From Acidimicrobiales bacterium (GTDB lineage Bacteria > Actinomycetota > Acidimicrobiia > Acidimicrobiales > UBA8190), in assembly GCA_035531755.1 (NCBI GenBank), contig DATKSK010000019.1:1-34352 (forward strand): 34,352 nucleotides of DNA, read 5' to 3'. The notes beneath the pieces were generated by a model, which had not been told where the DNA came from, made no database searches, and saw only the letters and a list, made by a program, of their open reading frames with translations. Made by a program: the position numbers and the translations under genes. This document shows, piece by piece, positions 4,344 to 21,839 of this stretch; the stretch's first letter is position 1; each line of letters begins with the position of its first letter.

Positions 4344-5282
4344 CGGACACCTGCGCGTGTCCACGGCCCCCGGTGAGATGGTGGCCGCCGACGCCGGGAC
4401 CGAGAGCGTCCTCGCCATCGAGGCGATCCCCGGGGCGACCGGCGCGGCCCCGTCCAGGCGCACGGGGTTGGGCGCGCTGTTCTGGGTGTGCGCAGGCTGG
4501 GTGGCGCTCATGGCCCTGCTGGCCATCCTCGCCGGCGTGCTCCCGCTCAAGGCGCCGAACTTCCAGGACTACTCGGCGGTCAACGTGGGGCCGAGCGTCC
4601 ACCACCTGCTGGGCACCGACGACCTCGGGCGGGACCTGCTGGCCCGCATCATCTACGGGTCGCGCGTGTCGCTCGTCATCGGGTTCGCCCCCGTGGCCAT
4701 CGGCCTCGCCGTGGGCGGGTCGCTGGGCCTGCTCGCCGGCTACCGCGGCGGGGTCGCCGACAGCCTGCTCAACGCCCTGTCGTTCGTGATCCTGGCGTTC
4801 CCGGCCCTGCTGGCCATCATGGTGATCGAGCGCTTCTGGCAGCCCATCTCGCTGTTGAAGCTGATCGTGCTCTTCGCCATCGTGGCCGCCCCCCAGCTGT
4901 TCCGCGTCATGCGGGCCACCACCCTGTCCTACGCGGGCCGCGAGTTCGTGGTGGCGGCGCGCGCCACCGGCGCCACCACGCGGCGCATCCTGCTGCGCGA
5001 GCTGCTGCCCAACACGCTGCCGGCGGCGGCCTCGTTCGCGCTCATCGGCGTGGCCATCGCCATCGTGCTCGAAGGGGCCCTCGCCTTCCTGGGACTGTCG
5101 GTGTCGCTCCCGACGTCCTCGCTCGGCAACATCATCAACGCCGGGGTGAACAACGACAACCTGACGCTCAACCCGTACATCGCGCTGTGGCCGTCGCTCT
5201 ACATCTTCCTGCTGCTGACCGCCCTGAACCTCATGGCCGACCGGCTGCGCTCGTACTTCGACATCCGCGAGGTGAAGCTGTG

Positions 5283-13406: not shown

Positions 13407-13490
13407 TGCCCGAGGCGGGATTCGAACCCGCACGTCCTTGCGGACAATGGCTTTTGAGGCCATCAGGTCTGCCTATTCCCTCACTCGGGC
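13407..13490 (-). tRNA. tRNA-Leu (anticodon CAA)
   Basis: The 84-nt minus-strand sequence folds as a type II tRNA. The acceptor stem GCCCGAG/CTCGGGC carries discriminator A at 13407. The anticodon stem ATGGC/GCCAT has loop CTCAAAA (anticodon CAA, reading UUG). A long variable arm GTCC-GCAA-GGAC and T-arm GCGGG-TTCGAAT-CCCGC complete it. The D-loop has GG. The 3' CCA is not encoded (ACCG follows). Confidence 0.97.
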
Positions 13491-13568: not shown

Positions 13569-13632
13569 GACGTGTCACCCTGGGGCACGCCCCCGATCGA
13601 GACGTGTCACCCTGGGGCACGCCCCCGATCGA
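13569..13632. repeat. Perfect 32-bp tandem duplication upstream of fabD
   Basis: Two identical 32-bp units (13569-13600, 13601-13632) abut each other. Each contains an imperfect inverted repeat CGTGTC-N7-GGCACG. The array ends 15 nt before the AGAGGAG Shine-Dalgarno of fabD. It could be a duplicated regulator site or part of a structured leader, depending on where transcription begins. Confidence 0.85.
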
Positions 13633-13657: not shown

Positions 13658-14902
13658 GTGCTGGCGTTCACCTTCCCGGGTCAGGGCTCGCAGCGACCCG
13701 GCATGGGTCGCGCCTGGCTCGAGCACCCGTCGTGGGAGGTCGTCGACGAGGCGTCGGCGGTCGCCGGCAAGGACGTCGCCCGCCTCCTCCTCGAGGCCGA
13801 CCAGGAGGAGCTCACGCTCACGGCGAACGCCCAGCTCGCCACGTTCGTGCTGAGCCTGGTGGTCCTCGACGCCATCGAGCGCGTCGGCATCGAGCCCACC
13901 CTGTGCGCCGGGCACAGCCTCGGCGAGTACACCGCCCTCGCCGCCAGCGGTGCGCTCGGCTTCGACGAGGGCGTGCGTCTGGTCGTCGAGCGCGGCGCGG
14001 CCATGCACCACGCCGCCCAGGAGCGGCCGGGGACCATGGCGGCCGTGATGGGCGCCGACGACGATGCCGCCGAGGCCGCCTGCCAGCGCGCCGAGGGCGA
14101 GGTGTGGGTGGCCAACTACAACGCGCCGGGCCAGGTCGTCATCGCCGGCACGGCCGAGGCGGTGACGGTCGCCGGGTCCATCGCCAAGGAGCTCGGCGCC
14201 CGCAAGGTCATCCCCTTCCCGGTGGCGGGCGCCTTCCACACCACGCTCATGAGCCCGGCCCGCGCGTGGCTGCGCAAGGCGCTGTCGGGCACGCCGTTCT
14301 CCGACCCCGAGATCCCGGTGGTGGCCAACGTCGACGCCCGCGCGCACAGCGCCGCCGACGAGTGGCCGGGGCTTCTCTCCGCCCAGTTGTGCAGCCCGGT
14401 GCGGTGGCGCCAGAGCCTGGAGACCCTCGCCGGCCTGGGCGCCACCCGCTTCGTCGAGGTGGGTCCCGGCGGCGTGCTCACCGGCCTGGCCCGGCGCACC
14501 CTCCCCGGTGCCGCCGCCAGCGCGGTGGCCACCCCCGACGACCTCGACACCCTGGTGAACGCCATCGCCGGCAGTGAGACGTGGCAGGCCTACGCCGCCG
14601 CCCACCAGGGCGAGCACCTCTACACCTCCGAACGCGTCGTCATCTCCCCGGCCGCCGGGATCTTCGAGCCCGTGGCGGGGCTGGGCGCACCGGGCCCCGC
14701 CGGCCTCGGTGCGGCGGGCACCGCCCAGCCCGGCCACGAGGGAGTCCCGGTCGCCGTCGGGGACCTGCTCGGCACGGTGGGCGCCGCCGAGGTCCGCACG
14801 CCGTTCGCCGGCATCGTCGTCGGCTTCCTGGCCCACCCGGGCGAGCGCGTCTCGGGAGGCGAGCCCATCGCGTGGCTGCGCGTCCCGACGGAGGGCGCGT
14901 GA
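13658..14902 (+). CDS. fabD: Malonyl-CoA:ACP transacylase with extra C-terminal barrel-sandwich domain
   Basis: This 414-residue enzyme transfers malonyl from CoA to acyl carrier protein. The catalytic part (~1-300) shows GQGSQ (8-12), nucleophile Ser87 in GHSLGE, Arg112, His194 in GAFHT and Gln243. Typical FabD ends near 310 residues. Here about 85 more residues (~326-410) resemble a biotinyl/lipoyl-type barrel-sandwich hybrid: VVISPAAGIFEPV, a Gly/Ala loop, VAVGDLLGTV, VRTPFAGIVVGFLAHPGERV and GEPIAWL. The usual EAMKM-type turn with the modifiable lysine is replaced by VGAAEV, so no biotin or lipoate can be attached there. GTG 13658 follows AGAGGAG. Its stop overlaps the fabH start (GTGA). 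First gene of the fab operon. Confidence 0.95.
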   Translation: MLAFTFPGQGSQRPGMGRAWLEHPSWEVVDEASAVAGKDVARLLLEADQEELTLTANAQLATFVLSLVVLDAIERVGIEPTLCAGHSLGEYTALAASGALGFDEGVRLVVERGAAMHHAAQERPGTMAAVMGADDDAAEAACQRAEGEVWVANYNAPGQVVIAGTAEAVTVAGSIAKELGARKVIPFPVAGAFHTTLMSPARAWLRKALSGTPFSDPEIPVVANVDARAHSAADEWPGLLSAQLCSPVRWRQSLETLAGLGATRFVEVGPGGVLTGLARRTLPGAAASAVATPDDLDTLVNAIAGSETWQAYAAAHQGEHLYTSERVVISPAAGIFEPVAGLGAPGPAGLGAAGTAQPGHEGVPVAVGDLLGTVGAAEVRTPFAGIVVGFLAHPGERVSGGEPIAWLRVPTEGA

Positions 14903-15876
14903 CGACCGCTGGGGGCGCCGTCATCACCGGATGGGGCACCGCGCTGCCCGACACCGTGGTGACCAACGCAGAGCTCGAATCCCGCCTCGACACCTCCGCC
15001 GAGTGGATCGTCGAGCGCTCGGGGATCTGCGAGCGGCGCGTGGGCGGGACGGTGTCGTCGCTCGCCGCCGACGCCGGGCGGCGGGCCCTGGCGCGCGCCG
15101 AGGTGTCGCCGGCCGACGTCGGCCTGCTGGTGCTGGCCACCTCCACCCCCGACATGGCGGTGCCGGCCACCTCCGCCACGGTGCACCACGCCCTCGGCCT
15201 GTCGGGCGGGGCCTTCGACGTCAACGCGGCGTGCGCTGGATTCGTCTACGCGCTGGTCGCCGCCCACGGCGCCCTGCGGGCCACCGGCGCCGCCCACGCG
15301 CTCGTCATCGGCGCCGACTGCCTGTCGCGGATCACCGATCCCACCGACCGTGCCACCGCCGTCCTCTTCGCCGACGGCGCCGGTGCCGTGGTGCTCGAAG
15401 CCCGCGACGACGACGGCCTGCTGTCGGTGGACCTCGGCATCGACGGCAGCGGGTACGACCTGCTGACGTGCCCGCACGGCGGCACCATCGCCATGGAGGG
15501 CAAAGAGGTGTTCCGGCGGGCCGTGCGCGTGACGGTCGACTCGGCATCGGCGGCACTGGCGGGCGCCGGGATCGCCGCCGACGAGGTGGCGTTGTTCGTC
15601 CCCCACCAGGCCAACCTGCGCATCATCGAGGCGACCGTGGCGCGCCTGGGCATCCCCATGGACCGCGTGGCCGTGGTCCTCGACCGCACGGGGAACACGT
15701 CGAGCGCCTCGGTGCCCCTGGCCCTCGCCGACGCCGCCGACGCCGGCCGGCTCCGGCCCGGCGACAACGTCCTGCTGTCGGGGTTCGGCGCCGGCATGGC
15801 CTGGGCCAGCATGGTGCTGCGGTGGGTCGTCGACACCGGTACCGGCTCCACGGGGCCGACCGGAGGTGGCCGGTGA
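14899..15876 (+). CDS. fabH: 3-oxoacyl-ACP synthase III (KAS III)
   Basis: This 325-residue condensing enzyme starts fatty acid chains from acyl-CoA and malonyl-ACP. The thiolase-fold catalytic triad is complete: Cys112 (NAACAGF), His236 (VPHQAN) and Asn266 (GNTSSAS). The N-terminal WGTALPD and WIVERSGICERR segments are typical of FabH (the latter helps bind CoA). The GTG at 14899 overlaps the fabD stop by 4 nt and is preceded by GGAGGG; the longer open frame upstream is a shadow of fabD. Starter-unit preference (acetyl or branched) cannot be judged from these motifs. The stop overlaps the fabG start by 4 nt. Confidence 0.95.
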   Translation: MTTAGGAVITGWGTALPDTVVTNAELESRLDTSAEWIVERSGICERRVGGTVSSLAADAGRRALARAEVSPADVGLLVLATSTPDMAVPATSATVHHALGLSGGAFDVNAACAGFVYALVAAHGALRATGAAHALVIGADCLSRITDPTDRATAVLFADGAGAVVLEARDDDGLLSVDLGIDGSGYDLLTCPHGGTIAMEGKEVFRRAVRVTVDSASAALAGAGIAADEVALFVPHQANLRIIEATVARLGIPMDRVAVVLDRTGNTSSASVPLALADAADAGRLRPGDNVLLSGFGAGMAWASMVLRWVVDTGTGSTGPTGGGR

Positions 15877-16631
15877 GCGGCGGCGCCGGGGGGACCGGCG
15901 CGGGGCGGGTGGTGCTCGTGACCGGCGGGTCGCGCGGCATCGGCCTCGCCTGCGCCCGGCGCTTCCAGTCCCTCGGGGACCGGGTCGCCGTCACCTACCG
16001 CACGGCGCCGCCCGCCGGGCTCGCCGGGACCGGGCCCGACGACGTCGACCTGCTGCCCGTCGAATGCGACGTGCGCGCCCCCGAGCAGGTGGACGCGGCG
16101 TTCACCGCCGTGGAGAAGGCCTTCGGCCCCGTCGAGGTCCTCGTGGCCAACGCCGGGGTGACCAAGGACACCCTCCTGCTGCGCATGGGCGAGGAGGCGT
16201 GGCACGAGGTGCTCGACACCAACCTGTCGGGCGTCTACCGCGTGGTGCGCCGGGGCCTCGGGCCCATGGTGCGGGCCCACCGGGGGCGCATCGTCCTGGT
16301 GTCGTCGGTGGTGGCCTTCCTCGGCTCACCCGGCCAGGTGAACTACGGGGCCGCCAAGGCCGGCCTGGTCGGCCTGGCCCGCTCGCTGGCGCGCGAGGTC
16401 GGCAGCCGGGGGATCACCGTGAACGTTGTCGCGCCCGGCGTGGTCGACACGGATATGATCGCCGGCCTGGGAGAACAGCGCGTGGATCAGCTCCAGGCGA
16501 TGGTGCCGTTGGGCCGCAGGGCGGAGCCCGCGGAGGTGGCGGGGGCGGTGGCGTTCCTCGCCTCGGCCGACGCCGCCTACATCACCGGTGCCGTGCTCCC
16601 GGTCGACGGTGGCCTCGGCATGGGGATGTGA
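15873..16631 (+). CDS. fabG: 3-oxoacyl-ACP reductase
   Basis: This 252-residue short-chain dehydrogenase performs the NADPH-dependent first reduction in the elongation cycle. It has the cofactor motif TGGSRGIG (17-24), NAG (93-95), catalytic Ser144/145, Tyr158 and Lys162 (YGAAK), and the C-terminal SADAAYITGAVLPVDGGLGMG segment characteristic of FabG. GTG 15873 overlaps the fabH stop (GTGA) and follows GGAGGTGG. In Streptomyces the compact fab cluster lacks fabG, so its inclusion here gives a fuller operon. The gene is followed by 263 bp holding a minisatellite before acpP. Confidence 0.93.
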   Translation: MSGGAGGTGAGRVVLVTGGSRGIGLACARRFQSLGDRVAVTYRTAPPAGLAGTGPDDVDLLPVECDVRAPEQVDAAFTAVEKAFGPVEVLVANAGVTKDTLLLRMGEEAWHEVLDTNLSGVYRVVRRGLGPMVRAHRGRIVLVSSVVAFLGSPGQVNYGAAKAGLVGLARSLAREVGSRGITVNVVAPGVVDTDMIAGLGEQRVDQLQAMVPLGRRAEPAEVAGAVAFLASADAAYITGAVLPVDGGLGMGM

Positions 16632-16718
16632 GGTGCGAGCAGGCACCGGAGCAGGCCCACCCCCGGTGAACGAGGGCCGGCGGTGACACGACCGCCGGCC
16701 ACACGGGCGGCGGTGAAA

Positions 16719-16854
16719 CCGGTGGAACAAGCCGGTGGAACAAGCCGGTGGAACAAGCCGGTGGAACAAGCCGGTGGAACAAGCCGGTGGAACAAGCCGG
16801 TGGAACAAGCCGGTGGAACAAGCCGGTGGAACAAGCCGGTGGAACAAGCCGGTG
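16719..16854. repeat. 13-bp minisatellite, 10 perfect copies, between fabG and acpP
   Basis: Ten identical units of CCGGTGGAACAAG (16719-16848) plus a 6-nt partial copy. Because 13 is not a multiple of 3, all frames read the same 13-residue cycle; on the plus strand it is GGTSRWNKPVEQA. None of the frames has a stop. The CCGG ends of adjacent units can pair with each other in RNA. The array ends 28 nt before the AAGGAGGA of acpP and lies in the operon transcript. Confidence 0.97.
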
Positions 16855-16894
16855 CGCCGGGCGACCGGAGCGCACCACGACCAAGGAGGATGCG

Positions 16895-17134
16895 GTGAGC
16901 GACGAGGCCACCTTCGACAAATTCAAGGCGTGCGCGATCGACGTCCTGCAGGTGCCCGCGGACAAGGTGGTCCCCGAGGCGCGCTTCGGTGACGACCTCG
17001 ACGCCGACAGCCTCGACCTGGTCGAGCTCGTCATGGCCCTCGAGGAGGCCTTCAACGTGACCGTCGACGAGTCCGAGCTCGAAGGCATCGAGACCGTCGG
17101 CCAGGCCTACGACCTGATCTCGGCCAAGCTCTGA
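16895..17134 (+). CDS. acpP: Acyl carrier protein
   Basis: This 79-residue acidic carrier holds growing acyl chains on a phosphopantetheine arm attached to Ser39 in DADSLDLVELVMALEE. Helix I (ATFDKFKACAIDVLQV) and the C-terminal helix (VGQAYDLISAKL) match the family. Start: GTG 16895 with a strong AAGGAGGA 4 nt upstream. The frame stays open upstream through the 13-bp array, which contains in-frame GTG codons (for example 16748), but those lack a good Shine-Dalgarno and would give a non-family N-terminus. The stop overlaps the ATG of fabF. Confidence 0.97.
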   Translation: MSDEATFDKFKACAIDVLQVPADKVVPEARFGDDLDADSLDLVELVMALEEAFNVTVDESELEGIETVGQAYDLISAKL

Positions 17135-18336
17135 TGCTCCTCGGGGTGGGGCCCGGCGGTCCCCTGCAGGGACGGCGTGTCGCCATCACCGGCATGGGCG
17201 TCCTGGCCTGCTGCGGCATCGGCCTCGACGCGTTCTGGCAGGGCCTGCAGCGTCCCGCGCCCGAGGGCGAGCGGCGCGTGCCCGACTTCGACCCCACGGC
17301 CTGGTTCGGCCCCAAGGAGGTCCGGCGCGTCGACCGCTTCGCCCAGTTCTCGGTGGCCGTGGCCGACATGGCGATCGCCGACGCCGGGGAGATCGACGCC
17401 GACCCCGACCGCTCGGGTGTGATCTTCGGCACCGGGGTGGGCGGCCTGGAGACCCTCCAGGAGCAGATCGGGGTGTTCCTCGACAAGGGCGCCCGCCGGG
17501 TGTCCCCGTTCCTGATCCCCATGATGATGGCCAACGCCGGCGCCGCCAACATCTCCATGCGAGTGGGGTGGCACGGCCCGTGCGAGACCATCACCACGGC
17601 GTGCGCGGCCGGCACCCACGCCGTGGCCGCCGCCGCCCGCCTGGTGGCGAGCGGCCGGTGCGACGTCGTCGTCGGCGGCGGGGCCGAGGCCGCCATGGTC
17701 GGCGTCGGGCTGGCCGCCTTCGCCAACATGACCGCGCTGTCGAGCGAGGGGAAGTCCCGGCCCTTCGACGTGCGCCGCGACGGCTTCATCTGCGCGGAGG
17801 GCGGCGGCGCGCTCGTGCTCGAGGACCTGGAGCACGCCCGCCGGCGCGGGGCGCGCATCTACGGCGAGCTCCTCGGCGCGGGGTCGACCGCCGACGCCCA
17901 CCACATCACCGCGCCGGCCCCCGGGGGCAACGGCGCGGCGGCCTGCATGGAGCTGGCCCTGGCCGACGCCCAGCTCGCTCCGGCGGCGATCGGCCACATC
18001 AATGCCCACGGCACCTCGACGCCGCTCAACGACCTGGCCGAGGCCCAGGCCATCGAGAAGGTGTTCGGGGCCCCCGCACCTCCGGTCACGTCGGTGAAGG
18101 GCGTCACCGGGCACGCCCTCGGGGGTGCGGGCGCCATCGAGGCGGTGGCCACGACCCTGTCCATCCACCACCGCCTGATCCCGCCCACCGCCGGGCACGA
18201 GCAGACCGACCCGGAGATCCACCTCGACGTGGTGCACGGCTCGGCCCGCCCGTGGGAGCCCGCCCCCTCGCTGTCGAACTCGTTCGGGTTCGGCGGCCAC
18301 AACGGCTGCCTCGTCATCGGGCCTCCCCCCGCCTGA
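17134..18336 (+). CDS. fabF: 3-oxoacyl-ACP synthase II (KAS II)
   Basis: This 400-residue elongating condensing enzyme has the Cys-His-His triad: Cys157 (TTACAAG), His292 ([11 protein letters not shown]) and His327 ([13 protein letters not shown], with Lys322). The N-terminal [15 protein letters not shown] and C-terminal [14 protein letters not shown] are family hallmarks. ATG 17134 overlaps the acpP stop (TGATG) without its own clear Shine-Dalgarno, implying coupling. It is the last fab gene. A GC-rich perfect hairpin follows at 18344-18374. Confidence 0.95.
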
Positions 18337-21041: not shown

Positions 21042-21839
21042 TCAGGAGGTGGCGTCGATACCGGCGCGCAGCTCCGACACGAACGCGGCCGCGCCGTCGG
21101 GACCGGCCCCGTCGAGCAGCCGGCGCACGAGGGCCGAGCCGACCACCACGCCGTCGGCCTCGGTGCACGCCTCGGCCGCCTGCGCGGCGTTCGACACGCC
21201 GATGCCGATGCACACGGGGCGCTCGGTCAGCCGCCGGACGGTGGCGGCCACGTGGCGCGCCGAGGACGCCAGCTCCGAACGCTCGCCGGTCACCCCCATG
21301 ACCCCGACGCCGTAGACGAAGCCCCGCGACCGTTCACAGATGGCCCGGGCCCGGGCCTCGGGCGTGGACGGCGCCACCAGCAGGACGGTGGCCACCCCGG
21401 CGGCGTCAGCCTCCTCGCACCATTCGCCGGACTCCTCGAGGGGGAGGTCGGGGATGATGGCCCCGGCGATGCCGGCGTCGGCCAGCGAGCGGGCGAAGCG
21501 GCGCAGGCCGGCGCGGAACACGATGTTGTAGTACGTCATCACGCACAGCGGCACGGGGAGGTCGGCGCGCGCCAGCACGTCGAGCACCGACGACGGCGTG
21601 GTGCCCCGCTGCAACGCCCGCAGCGACGCCTCCTGGATGACGGGCCCGTCGATCATCGGGTCCGAAAAGGGGATCCCGATCTCCACGGCGTCAGCGCCGG
21701 CGTCGGCCACGGCGAGCACGGCCTCGGCCCAGTCCGGTCCCATCCCGCCGGTCACGTAGGGGACGAGGAGCTTGCGCCCCCGGGCCCGGCGCGCCCGCAG
21801 ATGGGCCTCGAGCGACCCGATCTCCTCGGGCGCGCTCAT
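21042..21839 (-). CDS. trpA: Tryptophan synthase alpha chain
   Basis: This 265-residue TIM barrel cleaves indole-3-glycerol phosphate to indole and glyceraldehyde 3-phosphate. Catalytic Glu53 and Asp64 are present in [15 protein letters not shown] (equivalent to E. coli Glu49 and Asp60). Other family segments are [23 protein letters not shown], and the phosphate loop near [12 protein letters not shown] and [13 protein letters not shown] 21839 overlaps the trpB stop by 4 nt (ATGA), consistent with the tight complex the two subunits form. The open frame to 21947 is a shadow of trpB. Last gene of the trpCFBA operon. Confidence 0.95.

Follow-up and report, generated by a model that had tools for sequence, protein, structure and literature searches.

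A perfect 13-bp tandem array ahead of acpP in an Acidimicrobiales fab operon, probably a slippage-grown minisatellite

In Mycobacterium tuberculosis, promoter tandem repeats (VNTRs), such as those of dop, lpdA, and cysG, have units that are promoter elements, e.g., of 54 to 56 bp, and their copy number varies between isolates (PMC12817950). Their rate of variation is 10^-2 to 10^-3 per chromosome, and four copies upstream of lpdA were reported to increase its expression 12.5-fold (PMC12817950). Mycobacterial interspersed repetitive units (MIRU) are minisatellites that serve as VNTR loci and are often located in spacers of an actinobacterial genome (PMC3635867); they form a single dispersed family with longer, related units. 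A third kind, the phase-variable simple sequence repeats of pathogens, belong to contingency genes, in whose coding sequence or promoter DNA units of 1 to 6 bp are repeated.

We analyzed a tandem array that precedes acpP in a window of 34,352 nucleotides, which represents one contig of an Acidimicrobiales genome of 3.28 Mb in 77 contigs. Like the M. tuberculosis promoter repeats, it is a non-coding minisatellite that lies close to a gene start in an actinobacterium and for which fast length change, masked by short reads, would be expected (PMC12817950). Unlike them, it occupies a gap within an operon, its 13-bp unit is devoid of a -10-like element, and it is found in one genome. It shares with MIRU its nature as a minisatellite in an actinobacterial spacer, although the CCGGTGGAACAAG unit occupies a single genomic place. 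A frame-breaking period and probable slippage recall the phase-variable repeats of pathogens, in contrast to which this array precedes an essential housekeeping gene.

The array and its place in the fab operon

The array extends from 16719 to 16854 on the forward strand. TRF reported a period of 13, 10.5 copies (10.46), 100% match, no indels, and a score of 272, the highest of the 66 rows in the window. Direct reading resolved ten full CCGGTGGAACAAG units (16719 to 16848) followed by CCGGTG, with all units identical, and the array (13 bp x 10.5, 100%) fits the definition of a minisatellite, i.e., head-to-tail units of about 10 to 60 bp. The two analyses agree on the position and perfection ascribed to the array in the initial annotation. 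The distance of 28 nt given there between the array and the acpP Shine-Dalgarno is also correct, as the array ends at 16854 and AAGGAGG starts at 16883. Five shuffles of the sampled spacers of this genome yielded no array with a score of at least 100, which excludes a chance origin. As the genome is in 77 contigs, the reliability of the precise copy number depends on that of the assembly. An imperfect single relative of the unit, CCGGTGAACGAG, was read at 16663 to 16674 on the same strand and is possibly part of the sequence that seeded the array.

Curated family models gave the gene order fabD-fabH-fabG-acpP-fabF on the forward strand. In this run, fabD (13658 to 14902) and fabH (14899 to 15876) are followed by a fabG-type 3-oxoacyl-ACP reductase gene (15873 to 16631; NF009466 above cut-off), then by acpP, which codes for the acyl carrier protein and has a GTG start (16895 to 17134; TIGR00517 and NF002148 above cut-off), and by fabF (17134 to 18336). 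Gene calls, family models, and direct reading delimit a fabG-acpP gap of 263 nt (16632 to 16894) that contains the array and the acpP Shine-Dalgarno AAGGAGG (16883 to 16889). As the genes overlap at the fabD-fabH, fabH-fabG, and acpP-fabF junctions, this gap is the sole roomy spacer of the run. A long gap at this place is not odd by itself, since that of Escherichia coli K-12 is 210 nt (L170; end of fabG at 21404, start of acpP at 21615).

No promoter match was found between 16400 and 16930, and the -10-like TANNNT is absent from both the gap and the unit, which ruled out a promoter tandem repeat of the M. tuberculosis type. The gap contains no terminator match, and no Rfam family matched the array at E values up to 1. 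A search for literature on an acpP leader device found nothing relevant in the library covered.

The head of the operon harbors a second untranslated repeat, a perfect tandem duplication of a 32-bp unit (13569 to 13632) that ends 25 nt upstream of the called fabD start at 13658. A tRNA gene (13407 to 13490; Rfam RF00005, 55.3 bits) lies upstream of the operon on the opposite strand.

Tandem arrays in the spacers of this genome and of relatives

Allowing up to 2 mismatches, we found no further site of the doubled unit, either in its own genome or among 396 others of the order, and it is absent from the viral contigs searched. With one mismatch allowed, the single 13-mer occurs at five further sites of the genome, which is not above the reversed-sequence control. 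A MIRU-type dispersed repeat was therefore ruled out. In the two closest relatives, whose FabG proteins are about 88% identical, the fabG-acpP gaps are 58 and 57 nt long and lack the CCGGTGGAACAAG array; one of them has a small array of its own with a different unit (16 bp, 2.9 copies; L010/L029), and the other has none. This observed absence indicates that the array is younger than the split from those two lineages, in agreement with the perfect identity of its units and with the recent origin proposed initially.

To place the array in its genomic context, we used a sample of 760 kb, i.e., 23% of the genome, taken in stretches (L109 to L148), in which gene calling relied on a simple codon model and the non-coding part amounts to about 81 kb. 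This non-coding DNA contains 68 distinct arrays with TRF scores of at least 60, compared with 3.2 in dinucleotide shuffles, and 28 with scores of at least 100, compared with 0. The density is about 8 arrays per 10 kb, which extrapolates from the 23% sample to about 290 spacer arrays in the whole genome. Units of 14 to 17 bp are the commonest, and their sequences are unrelated. Arrays occur at 9.0 per 10 kb in co-directional gaps, 6.9 in divergent gaps, and 10.0 in convergent gaps, and 36 of 291 co-directional gaps (about 12%, or one in eight) have one. By a cruder measure, the number of frame-breaking arrays per 100 kb of coding and non-coding DNA together, the values are 7.2 for this genome, about 6 for the family (a little too high, as one stretch overlaps), 3 to 4 for two further genomes of the order, and 1.0 for a 100-kb sample of E. 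coli K-12. An eye-catching array before an essential gene can thus be explained by a process that operates genome-wide.

The period of the array had been given special meaning because it is not a multiple of 3. We observed a frame filter in coding DNA, where 70 of 72 arrays have a period that is a multiple of 3 (70/1/1 over the three frame classes), whereas spacer periods are spread evenly (18/19/21). A 13-bp period is therefore merely what an untranslated spacer permits, there is no sign of frame selection on the unit, and the proposed meaning was not supported. The array is exceptional solely in its copy number. At 10.5 copies, it is the highest among near-perfect arrays of the 23% sample, in which the next most copy-rich array at 95% identity or more and a period of at least 7 has 5.5. 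Spacers of family relatives contain perfect arrays of 15-bp units in 8.4 and 7.2 copies.

The 68 fabG-acpP gaps compared in related loci have a median length of 72 nt, and six of them contain arrays with scores of at least 60, each with a different unit (40 bp x 3.3, 23 bp x 2.2, 16 bp x 2.9, 15 bp x 2.9, 12 bp x 2.8, and 18 bp x 2.0). Neither the sequence nor the length of the gap is conserved, and there is no conserved unit. The density of arrays in these 68 gaps is 9.7 per 10 kb versus 5.0 in the other spacers of the same loci, an enrichment of about 2-fold that is not significant (P = 0.15). Together with the frequency of arrays in co-directional gaps, this gives no support to the earlier view of acpP as a special target. 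The 23-bp unit occurs once in L069 and twice in the closely related L070, showing that copy number at the acpP leader has changed between relatives in at least one case.

Origin of the array and its possible effects on acpP

We favor, with a probability of about 0.7, the explanation that the array is a slippage-grown minisatellite in a tolerant spacer, variable in length and near-neutral for the acyl carrier protein. The untranslated gap between fabG and acpP would have contained a short G+C-rich seed that grew by replication slippage, or by unequal recombination, and the expansion would postdate the split from the nearest relatives compared. Ordinary copying slippage, rather than a purpose-built dial for acpP, is the most likely cause because dozens of such repeats occur in the gene spacers of this bacterium; the acpP array would be one of several hundred in the genome. 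Its persistence can be accounted for by a gap that is roomy in a packed operon and by the strong Shine-Dalgarno that acpP itself has 28 nt downstream, which would protect the gene from changes in the array. Array length probably changes often, and such changes would be near-neutral for the acyl carrier protein. As the efficiency of translational coupling drops when the distance between genes grows (PMC12548453), the side effect that we consider most plausible is that acpP is coupled less tightly to fabG. Three observations count against slippage as the explanation: the top copy number in the sample, the folding of the leader (z = -3.74 relative to shuffles), and the approximately 2-fold, non-significant excess of arrays in acpP gaps. 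Given long reads, spacer arrays could become typing markers for uncultured Acidimicrobiales.

The initial annotation had proposed that pairing between units could tune acpP expression. In the more general form of this idea, the array would be a copy-number dial acting through RNA structure or spacing, i.e., by changing the access of ribosomes or Rho, or cleavage by RNase, between fabG and acpP, and if true it would represent a rare case of copy-number variation ahead of core fatty-acid synthesis. Acyl carrier protein is required in excess, which makes acpP a plausible place for a dial. The leader RNA is predicted to fold better than shuffles, with pairing between self-complementary GCCGGU units and a separate G+C-rich hairpin upstream of the array (16676 to 16701, forward strand; GGCCGGCGGT paired with ACCGCCGGCC) that has 10 pairs, a 6-nt loop, and a free energy of -25.4 kcal/mol in a 40-nt piece; no T run follows it. 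The pairing part of the proposal was thus upheld by prediction. Its tuning part was not, as increasing the number of copies produces no trend in the predicted accessibility of the acpP ribosome site; the unpaired probability of the Shine-Dalgarno stays at 0.70 to 0.72 from 0 to 20 copies. A switch based on odd or even copy numbers appeared in one folding context and was rejected as a robust property over 25 flank combinations, in which the difference in opening energy ranged from about -1.6 to +3 kcal/mol. As this effect is inconsistent in size and sign across contexts, an RNA switch cannot be claimed. The M. tuberculosis promoter repeats, which vary and to whose copies lpdA expression is reported to respond (PMC12817950), offer a precedent for a dial, but the acpP unit differs from them in having neither TANNNT nor a promoter match. 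The relatives, moreover, have no conserved unit. We consider a dial unlikely.

Reading frames offer another route to an effect. All frames through the array are open, and the ORF list contains one, from 16683 to 16898 on the forward strand, that, given the current number of copies, terminates in the GTGA overlap where acpP begins. A table of frames by copy number confirmed that each gain or loss of a unit changes which upstream frame runs into acpP: from GTG 16683 or GTG 16713, 10 copies lead to a stop at the GTGA overlap, 11 copies to an in-frame fusion to the acyl carrier protein, and 12 copies to an out-of-frame overlap of 98 nt into acpP. This cycle is real, and copy number could set the leader frame to one of these three outcomes, each corresponding to a different state of expression. 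However, the start of the candidate leader frame sits within the strong predicted hairpin, and GTGAGC is a common beginning of acpP in the family, so that one phase in three reaches the overlap by chance. The gap is conserved neither in sequence nor in length, and a period of 13 is unremarkable among spacer arrays, arguing that such a frame switch is very unlikely. We give even less credence to a three-state slippage switch, in which coupling, fusion, and out-of-frame overlap would provide cells of a population with differing levels of the protein.

The printed copy number might also be wrong, or the array wholly false, as a result of assembly. The assembly comprises 77 contigs, the array overlaps itself over at most 123 nt, which would be near the limit of short-read assembly, and counting the units of arrays above about 150 to 300 bp is beyond short reads (PMC12817950). 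Nevertheless, many other arrays were found in the same genome, perfect arrays occur in independently assembled relatives, and none of the 31 contig ends checked falls in a long array, which makes an artefact quite improbable. A slippage-grown spacer minisatellite remains the explanation that we prefer.

Other repeats and structures near acpP in relatives

Two of the units in relatives' fabG-acpP gaps, those of 40 and 23 bp, contain -10-like sequences, TAGAGT- and TAGTAT-like, which makes them possible promoter repeats. The 40-bp unit is present in 3.3 copies with 100% identity at 2292 to 2422 of L071 (YP4.bin48). Each copy contains TTCCTTCACCTAGAGTGAG with the -10-like TAGAGT, and judging from its sequence this array may multiply an acpP promoter.

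Relatives' gaps have only a slight tendency toward structure (mean z = -0.5). Four loci (L088, L098, L100, and L103) share a conserved fabG-acpP gap of 73 to 74 nt with a GGTC...GACC hairpin and a possible -10-like TAGAAT, and in two of them, L100 and L103, the predicted fold of the gap is far more stable than that of shuffles (z = -3.4 and -4.3). In Desertimonas flava (L078), a 101-bp tandem repeat is found at 1422 to 1631 and at 4884 to 5213, about 3 kb apart, flanking the acpP region in apparently opposite orientations.
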